Positions 55,518-57,288 of a DNA stretch of 64,000 nucleotides are shown in pieces. This DNA comes from Rhodopirellula baltica SH 1 (GTDB taxonomy: Bacteria > Planctomycetota > Planctomycetia > Pirellulales > Pirellulaceae). The stretch spans positions 5,390,001-5,454,000 of the forward strand of contig NC_005027.1 of assembly GCF_000196115.1 (NCBI RefSeq), in the 5' to 3' direction. Within the stretch, counting starts at the first letter, position 1. Each line of letters begins with the position of its first letter. The translations under genes were made by a program, and so were the position numbers. A model generated the notes under the pieces. The model was not told the origin of the DNA, searched no databases, and was given only the letters and a program-made list of their open reading frames with translations.

Positions 55518-55585
55518 GAGGCCGCGTTTTAGCGGGTTTCAGCCTTTGAGCACCTCTCCCGAAACAAAGTTTTGGGGGAGCGACC
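55518..55585 (+). repeat. Left fragment of structured repeat, interrupted by IS110
   Basis: Matches the end of the intact repeat at 60889-61115 (read on minus). Common features in order are the GAGG terminus, a GTTTCAGC-like block, then CACCTCTCCCGAAACAAAG-TTT (about 55551-55573, one or two differences from the intact copy) and GAGCGAC at 55578-55584. The rest of this repeat copy continues at 57124 on the other side of the IS element. Confidence 0.75.
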
Positions 55586-55865
55586 GTAATGAATCTGGCA
55601 AGTGTCAGCGATCAAAAATCATAAAATTTTTGATTCCATGGCGTTCTCTGCGCAGCATCTTAACGGCGGGCTCTTGGGTAAAAGCTCGCTTTGATTAAAC
55701 TTGCAAACTGGTACCGCGTGGCAACACGCGAGTACGTCGGGCAGCCGGTTGTCGGGCTTGTTTCGATGCCCGGCTGCCCCCTTTTCACTTCGCGTGGTGG
55801 TTGCCTGTGGCGGTGCGACCTCGATCGGGCTCGGCGAAAGGGACTCGCGGCGACGCTTGGGTGGA

Positions 55866-56891
55866 TTAGCAACAGGATTGCACCTCGGCCATGGAGGCGT
55901 ACTTCGTTGCGTCAAAGGTTTCTTCGTTGCGAACCATTTGATTGAGCGTCGAAAGCATCTTCCGCATGCAAGCGACCATCGCCACCTTGAAGGGCTTGCC
56001 TTGGCGGCGAAGCCGTTCGTAAAACGCCTTGGTCGCCGGGTCGTGTCTGCGTGCCGAATTAGCCGCCATGTACATCGCGTTGCGTACGTCTTGTCGTCCG
56101 CCGCGAATCGGACGCTTGCCATCCTTCCTGCCACTCTGGTTGGCAATCGGACTGACGCCAACAAGCTTGGCCACCTGCTTTCGGTTCAGCGTTCCCAATT
56201 CAGGCAACCGAGTGAGCAGCACGCTCGCGGTGACTTTGCCGACACCGGTGTGACTGAGCAGGATATCGACCTTGGGATCCTCTTTGGCAAGCTCCTTGAG
56301 AATCTCATGGAGGCGTTTTTCAACGCTTTTGAGCTGCTTTTGGATGTTTTCCAACATCTCTTCAAGGAACTTGATTGCCTCGGCGTCATGGGTGTGTTCC
56401 AACCGCATCCGCTCCTGGCCACGCATCTTCAGCAATGCCTCACGTCGATTGACCAAGGCGGTATGGTGCTTCTGCTGAGCAGTGCGAGGAGCCGTCAGAT
56501 GAACTTTGACATCCTGACCGAATTGGCAGAGCACACCTGCATCGATCTGGTCCGTTTTCTCCAGCCGGCCCTGACCTTTGGCAAAGTCTCGGACCTGTCG
56601 CGCGTTGACCACCGCGACGTCGACCGAATTGTCGTGAGCGGCGTCCATCATCAGTAAGTGGTAACTTGCTGTCGATTCGCAAATGATCAAAGTGCGAGAG
56701 GCTGGATCAATGTGATCGAGCAAATGCTTGTGGATGTGATCGAGGTCATTGTTGATCGAGCCGGTGATCTTCCCGTGCGAGTCACACAGGTCGAGTTTGT
56801 CTTTGGCGACGTCGACGCCAATGACCCGCTGGTAGCCGGTTCTCGAAAGAGTTGCTTCGTTGACGCTGATGGTTGTTGCTTCGCGATTCAT
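55866..56891 (-). CDS. IS110-family DEDD transposase
   Basis: 341 residues and apparently intact. The N-terminal RuvC-like DEDD domain has [26 protein letters not shown] and [10 protein letters not shown], giving the four acidic positions. A central coiled coil ([20 protein letters not shown]) leads to the C-terminal Transposase_20 domain ([40 protein letters not shown]), where the Ser of NQSG is the predicted recombinase nucleophile. In IS110-family elements target choice is set by a bridge RNA made from a non-coding end. ATG 56889-56891 follows an unremarkable leader. Confidence 0.93.
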
Positions 56892-57110
56892 CTTTCAAAT
56901 CCCTGCCTAGTAAATGCGGTCTGGCTAAGAAGCCGACCTGGCGACCGTTCGGGTAAAAGAACTCGCTTGCGACCAAGCTCCCCCTCGTACTGGCGAACGC
57001 CGAATAAAGGGTCGAAAGCGATCTGCAAGCGAGCAACCATTTCGGCAGAGCGACTGCCCAATGGTCGTCACAGCGAATCGACTGACAAACAGTTAAAACT
57101 CAGCAACAGC
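56892..57110 (-). ncRNA. Candidate bridge RNA region of the IS110 element
   Basis: The roughly 220 bp upstream of the transposase is non-coding and folds. A perfect 9-bp long-range stem pairs CTCGCTTGC (56962-56970) with GCAAGCGAG (57025-57033), enclosing a GGCG-AA-CGCC hairpin. A separate hairpin with stem GGCAG/CTGCC (57044-57058) holds AGCGA in its loop. That loop is part of GAGCGAC (57048-57054), the same 7-mer found at both IS-target junctions. In the IS110 subgroup the bridge RNA lies upstream of the transposase. In the IS1111 subgroup it lies downstream, where a hairpin at 55739-55779 is the alternative candidate. Confidence 0.5.
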
Positions 57111-57123
57111 GATATACTAGGTC

Positions 57124-57288
57124 GAGCGACGCCGTTCAGGCGTACGCGAGGGAGGGGGCCGAGCATGGAAAACGGCGCGGATTGCCCTCCCCCGGAAATC
57201 TCGCTGAACGCTCGCTTTCCGACCCCTCCCGCTGCACAGGCGAGGTTCTCAAGGGTACTGGCACTGCACTTAAAATCCGCGTGACCTT
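57124..57288 (+). repeat. Right part of structured repeat, continuing after IS110
   Basis: Aligns with the minus-strand reading of 60889-61115. A nearly identical run covers GAGCGACGCCGTTCAGGCG, then TACGCGAGGG and on to TCTCGCTGAACGCTC (about 57124-57215), with few substitutions. A more diverged tail ends around GTGACCTT, the counterpart of the terminal repeat of the intact copy. It can fold: GGGAGGG pairs with CCCTCCC and GCGAG with CTCGC. Confidence 0.8.

Follow-up and report, generated by a model that had tools for sequence, protein, structure and literature searches.

Within the window analysed here, a stretch of 64,000 nucleotides (5390001-5454000 of a single-contig genome of 7,145,576 bases, labelled G000), an IS110-family transposase gene lies between two sequence blocks that resemble parts of one intact repeat. 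How did the element come to lie there, and what do other copies of the repeat tell about its movement? We consider it probable (roughly 0.8) that a bridge-RNA-guided, IS621-like element inserted into the repeat and that members of its family left footprints at other copies. Sequences are written throughout in the transposase sense, which is the minus strand of the window.

An IS110-family insertion in a dispersed repeat

The following features define the insertion (window positions).

60889..61115, plus strand: intact copy of the target repeat with inverted-repeat ends (genome matches, DNA fold z)
57119..57288, minus strand: left-end-side part of the target repeat (5' in the transposase sense), with the CT core (57119-57120) at its end (alignment with the intact and plain copies)
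55518..55580, minus strand: right-end-side part of the target repeat, with the CT core (55579-55580) at its start (alignment with the 3' part of the repeat)
55581..57118, minus strand: IS110-family element between the cores, 1538 bp (three copies in G000; in plain sites the flanks overlap by 2 bases)

The original prediction held that the two flanks are ordered, co-oriented parts of the intact repeat, and named non-collinear flanks as the observation that would speak against it. When joined in element orientation (231 bp) and aligned to 60889-61115, the flanks were collinear, with 171 of 223 aligned bases identical and a score of 118.5, whereas none of 483 random stretches of 227 bases from the window scored above 12.5. 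Plain copies elsewhere were closer to the joined flanks (L007, 211/229; L006, 209/229). In plain copies the two repeat parts overlap by 2 bases, for example at 2908252-2908317 and 2908316-2908486, which fixes the core shared by both flanks as CT (AG on the plus strand) and the element as 1538 bp between the cores, or 1542 bp including both. The two-part split of the repeat was therefore correctly foreseen, whereas its exact limits had to be moved to 55518-55580 and 57119-57288.

Three copies of the element were found in G000. Their proteins are identical, and the element bodies differ only at seven positions in the right end of L033 (counted by eye). All three are flanked by the repeat, as the proposed check of other copies had anticipated. 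The left end meets the same repeat base in 3/3 copies; the right end runs on through the repeat in the window copy and in L032, whereas on this side of L033 a deletion cuts the repeat short directly after CTCCC. The reading as an IS110-family insertion in a structured repeat, revealing both the target and the element ends, is thus supported.

The repeat is about 230 bp long and has at least 44 matches in G000 (40 of 74 first-look candidates scored). An 18-bp inverted repeat closes its intact copy, whose DNA fold is far better than that of shuffled sequences (z -6.26). Regarding the palindromic target of IS621 type that had been suggested, the structured nature of the repeat was retained, but at about 230 bp with an 18-bp closing inverted repeat it is larger than the E. 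coli REP. No Rfam match was obtained over window positions 55000-61600. The REP/RAYT arrangement, a short palindrome near a Y1 transposase gene, does not describe the repeat: the nearest of eight Y1_Tnp matches in G000 lies about 15 kb from a listed repeat match (by eye), and RAYT-driven spread was set aside, there being no close Y1 transposase.

Recombinase and group assignment

55866..56891, minus strand: transposase/recombinase, 341 aa (Pfam DEDD_Tnp_IS110 and Transposase_20, NCBIfam transpos_IS110, IS621 alignment)

The recombinase carries the IS110-family domains PF01548 (68.5 bits, cut-off 29) and PF02371 (66.9 bits, cut-off 21.3) and matches NF033542, transpos_IS110 (190.2 bits, cut-off 140). 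Two solved sequences, IS621 and ISCro4, match it, the former with a phmmer E-value of 1.5e-23. By eye, the catalytic D, E, D, D and S positions correspond to those of IS621 in the phmmer alignment; the roles of these residues in IS621 are described in the accessible text of PMC11208158.

As in the IS110 group, a CT core flanks the element at either end and is also present in the empty target. The non-coding left end (229 bases, cores included) is shorter than the right end (288 bases), the reverse of the IS110 group pattern; because the accessible portion of PMC11208160 gives a left end exceeding the right as a group tendency, this is no bar to membership. The subterminal inverted repeats of 7-17 bp that mark IS1111 elements were absent, exact inverted matches between the outermost 45 bases of the two ends being no longer than 6. 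The element is an IS621-like member of the IS110 group, and this much is a further case of a known type.

A predicted bridge RNA in the left end

In the fold of this left end, a 5' stem-loop is followed by two stem-loops with internal loops, the first of which holds the predicted target guides and the second the predicted donor guides. This predicted left-end bridge RNA thus has the target loop before the donor loop, as in the IS110 group. G209 below is a genome of another genus with a related element.

56892..57075, minus strand: predicted bridge RNA region with inferred boundaries (fold z -2.67; same architecture in G209)
57034-57067, minus strand: 5' stem-loop of the predicted bridge RNA (fold, hand comparison with G209)
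56961-57034, minus strand: predicted target-binding stem-loop (fold, hand comparison with G209)
about 56898-56954, minus strand: predicted donor-binding stem-loop (fold, hand comparison with G209)
57010..57017, minus strand: predicted left target guide TTTCGACC (6/8 bases plus one wobble against GCTCGAC-C of the repeat)
56978..56984, minus strand: predicted right target guide GGGGGAG (7/7 against CT-CCCCC)
56941..56948, minus strand: predicted left donor guide ACGGTCGC (8/8 against the element right end)
56907..56913, minus strand: predicted right donor guide TTACTAG (6/7 against the left end, CTAGTAT)

The stems of G000 and G209 were compared by hand, as the MAFFT alignment of the 5' stem was wrong. 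Pairing was kept despite changes on both sides in 6 of 7 pairs of the 5' stem-loop and, for the target-loop stem, in 4 of 10 pairs.

With guides placed freely, at any two places of the left end, the target score was matched by 34 (G000), 36 (G003) and 81 (G209) of 4000 random sites, and the donor guides were equalled at 9, 126 and 81 of 4000, respectively. The right end, a control that should hold no guides, scored 12.5 versus 13.5. The guide match with free placement is thus weak. With fixed guide positions, none of 5835 random CT sites fitted as well for G000 and G003, and 11 of 5835 did for G209. These positions were chosen on the G000 element and those of its relatives follow from alignment, so the relatives are the fairer guide tests.

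The ends, the CT core, the common target point, the guide fits and the covarying stems can be read from the sequences themselves; that the bridge RNA is made and used is a probable consequence. The comparison with IS621 that opened this analysis is borne out by the protein match, the CT core and a bridge-RNA-like structure in the left end that fits both target and donor.

Guide and target in related elements

The element of G003 is 94% identical to that of G000 (over 419 bases), and its right target guide, known from one complete copy, reads GGGAGAG instead of GGGGGAG, a difference of one base. The right ends lie in CT-CCCC(C) repeats in 3/3 cases of G000, and in CT-CTCCC repeats in 3/3 cases of G003 and 1/1 of G006. 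Through a G-T pair, the G000 guide could also accept CT-CTCCC (13.0 versus 13.5). Guide and target change together between the G000 and G003 elements, in small numbers.

The related IS110 element of G209 shares 51% protein identity with that of G000 and has at least eight copies. Its right guide GGATGAG matches the target CT-CATCC at 7/7 positions, and its left guide fits at 4.5/8. At L299 and L301 this genome was seen to have a dispersed palindromic repeat of its own, with the related element at the foot of the palindrome. In two empty sites of G209, the expected left-CT-right join lies directly before the palindrome, and a third has a short deletion at the join; none of the three contains a footprint. 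Despite the different target, the G209 element starts with CTAGTATCTCGCCTG, nearly the same left end as in G000. In G206, G029 and G204 the elements (39-42% identical) end differently; they were not used, and neither were three distant loci from a named-genome search.

Left-end-like segments in other repeat copies

Beyond what was originally reported for this locus, other copies of the repeat carry segments that look like footprints of the element. The left end reads CT-AGTATATCG-CT-GTTG-CT-GAG, with CTs at positions 0, 11, 17, 28 and 47. Some repeat copies carry, at the insertion point, about 11 or 17 bp resembling this left end and extending to the CT at 11 or the CT at 17. Among 114 classified copies from six genomes, 81 were plain, 18 had a short insert, 7 had a long insert, 5 were occupied and 3 were other, so that footprints were present in 25/114. 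In G000, classification was limited to the 35 copies whose left-target anchor could be recognised: 24 were plain, 6 were scarred, 3 were occupied, 1 contained another element and 1 was truncated. The partial or anchorless copies L017, L025, L027, L028, L071, L072 and L075-L077 were left out. In the other genomes, scar-like matches were taken first and plain ones later, among the matches listed, and the proportions there are therefore not frequencies. L129, an element fragment, was kept outside the classification.

All 25 inserts have CT at the end, and 22 of them also have CT at the start. Identity to the left end is exact in 7/18 short and 3/7 long inserts, many footprints having diverged, and two short inserts are 12 bp long (counted by eye). 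The CTs that end the footprints are preceded by TCG and TTG, and the right-end core is preceded by TCG.

A search of 13 genomes with the left-end pattern (at most 3 mismatches; reversed pattern as control) gave 10 matches in G000, 2 in G002, 9 in G003, 9 in G006 and 2 in G012, counts that include elements and a few 3-mismatch chance matches, versus 1, 0, 0, 0 and 1 for the control. In G010, where the repeat is present, there were 0 matches versus 2 in the control, and the remaining seven genomes gave 0 to 4 each, all with 3 mismatches. For IS621, one probe for the equivalent 12-bp footprint, in one E. coli REP variant, was nowhere matched in full. The best 40 listed rows all match 46/49 bases, as an inserted element would, and in 1189 of 5426 genomes at least 80% of the probe is covered at some place.

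Orthologous loci and repeat phylogeny

At three loci, syntenic over about 4 kb, one species has the scar and another has a plain repeat copy. At locus 1, the 11-bp insert is present in G000 and G003 and absent from the plain copy of G006, with homology through about 4 kb (85-90%). Locus 2 has 17 bp in G000 and is plain in G003 (89-92%). Locus 3 is also plain in G003, and in G000 it carries, in a CT-CCCCC repeat, 17 bp identical to the present left end of the G000 element (90%). A fourth locus is occupied in G003 and plain in G000; the G003 contig stops within the element, which leaves synteny on one side (1617 bp, 86%), and the two repeats are of different subtypes.

The intergenic regions of G003, G006, G012, G004 and G002 held no clean empty orthologue of the window copy. 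The empty site anticipated in relatives was thus not recovered for this copy, and a plain/occupied pair exists at another locus, the fourth above. In the gap of G003 (C130) orthologous to window positions 55461-57565, between the same two genes, a plain repeat copy (L320) was seen in the opposite orientation. The same gap contains no repeat copy in the examined stretches of G006, G012 and G004, and the G002 contig ends there; repeats therefore come and go in this gap.

A repeat tree was built without the insert columns from 103 of the 114 rows, leaving out the 5 occupied and 3 other rows, L029, and L245 and L251, which were too short. Its 24 scarred rows require at least 19 changes, with gain and loss not told apart, and 10 of these changes are forced by well-supported branches. 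Shuffled scar labels gave a mean of 21.8 changes, with 26 of 500 shuffles as low as 19, indicating slight clustering. Caution is due: the repeats are short, recombination between them is possible, and the tree leaves 46 of 100 inner branches open. Because at least 19 changes are needed for 24 scarred rows, the tree suggests a repeated origin of the footprints. The spread of one scarred repeat lineage was set aside on the same scatter of scars.

A preference of scars for the CT-CTC target was likewise not borne out. Scarred rows comprised 21 of type B, 2 of type A and 1 other, versus 29 B, 38 A and 12 other among plain rows (Fisher 5.7e-5, kinship ignored); with relatedness considered, the type is mostly the same in independent pairs.

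Proposed mechanism and alternative explanations

In the mechanism that we propose, the left end would encode the bridge RNA of an IS621-like element, which would bring a circular form of the element to the dispersed structured repeat, and recombination would take place at the CT core, at the foot of the 3' hairpin of the repeat. Members of the element family would once have resided at other repeat copies and then been lost, with about 11 or 17 bp of the left end plus the CT remaining. Since G209 has nearly the same left end with a different target, this sequence belongs to the element; together with the left target and right donor guides, which fit the outer CT, this points to the inserts as element footprints. 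We judge off-register excision, in which the recombinase joins the right-end CT to the first or second CT inside the left end, to be their most likely source, at about an even chance. Excision in this element family would then not always be scarless. This is the unexpected part, as IS110 elements are otherwise described as excising scarlessly (accessible text of PMC11208160), and the expected product is left target-core-right target (figure legend in PMC11208158).

Alternatively, the footprints might be ordinary deletions between short direct repeats that followed insertion, by replication slippage or end joining, with the recombinase uninvolved. The word TCGCT, common to the left end (bases 8-12) and the right end, fits the 11-bp class, whereas the 17-bp class shares only GCT, and a longer shared word near the right end, ATCGCTG, is unused in the observed copies. 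Such deletions would also have to account for just two length classes, for a CT at every insert end and for the many scattered events on the tree. We regard this explanation as doubtful, though still a serious competitor of off-register excision.

An abortive insertion, in which the recombinase first links the left target to the left end at the outer CT and next resolves from an internal CT into the right target, would let 11 or 17 bp enter and never the whole element. The product would be the same, with CT at both junctions as observed, but two close exchanges are needed and no intermediate was seen, and we consider it unlikely.

As for the occupied sites, the three copies in G000 could have multiplied as passengers of a mobile repeat, without repeated insertion. 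The repeat itself is dispersed, and L032 and L033 have near-identical repeat flanks on the left-end side; against this, the window copy shares its element body with L032 in differing repeat flanks, the repeat copies around the three G003 right ends differ from one another, and at least two events are needed in G000, which makes this reading improbable. That the 11-17 bp were first part of the repeat and were later captured as the element left end is the least credible alternative: although the segment is present in repeats of several species, diverged in some, it is largely refuted by the nearly identical left end of G209, in another genus with another target, and by the fit of both the left target guide and the right donor guide to the outer CT.

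Returning to off-register excision, we tentatively extend it to the idea that some IS110 elements are not scarless, their recombinases regularly using CTs that resemble donor half-sites just inside the left end. If this were so, each 11- or 17-bp loss would break the target, and the repeat copy could no longer be hit. In that case the repeats would record earlier guides and past events of RNA-guided transposition, and the element would restrict its own target supply.

Relation to known systems

According to the accessible text of PMC11208160 and PMC11208158, the element resembles IS621 of E. coli in its IS110 recombinase with aligned DEDD and serine residues, its CT core, its repetitive palindromic target and its left-end bridge RNA, predicted here, with the order 5' stem-loop, target loop, donor loop (the order as given in PMC11208160). 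As far as the same text goes, it differs in its target, a planctomycete repeat of about 230 bp instead of REP, and in a right end that is longer than the left. It also differs in the end footprints at other repeat copies, none of which was found for IS621 with the one probe used.

Copies of ISPa11, ISPpu9, ISPpu10 and ISRm19 lie in one REP family in 6/6, 7/7, 7/7 and 4/4 cases, respectively (accessible part of PMC1525189), and the present element is similar in that the copies of one IS110 element occupy one repeat family. Compared with what that part of the study covers, guides, a one-base guide change and footprints were examined here. In the natural redirection of ISEc11/ISXne4, as presented in the available sections of PMC11187229, guide bases and targets likewise differ jointly in related elements. 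Here, the change concerns one guide base between 94%-identical elements and two subtypes of one repeat, and the predicted bridge RNA lies in the left end, without a subterminal inverted repeat as in IS1111. A literature search of titles and abstract openings, in which few subscription papers were covered, returned nothing on IS110 footprints or on the target repeat.

Bridge-RNA recombinases are under development for genome engineering, where off-register products matter, and nature has apparently run this reaction many times in one repeat family. Targets, the one-base guide change, occupied sites and end footprints are all readable in genomes. With this natural record, the precision with which IS110 elements leave their sites becomes testable, and the planctomycete IS621-like system is on offer for that purpose.

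Surroundings of the repeat

In the flanks of L032 and L033, the repeat appeared as a module of a larger mosaic, and both loci are edged by inverted segments like CCGAATGGCACTTACTT / AAGTAAGTGCCATTCGG. Past the intact repeat of the window, ORFs at 61244-61624 and 61913-63247 resemble CutA and a DNA polymerase sliding clamp (by eye). In another repeat copy (L035/L077, G000:C1, about 2116475-2117786), a different IS occupies the same CT. It resembles an ISAs1-type transposase (by eye) and shows an apparent 10-bp duplication, CGCTCGACCT, and inverted ends, CACGGCGATCGCATCAAA.
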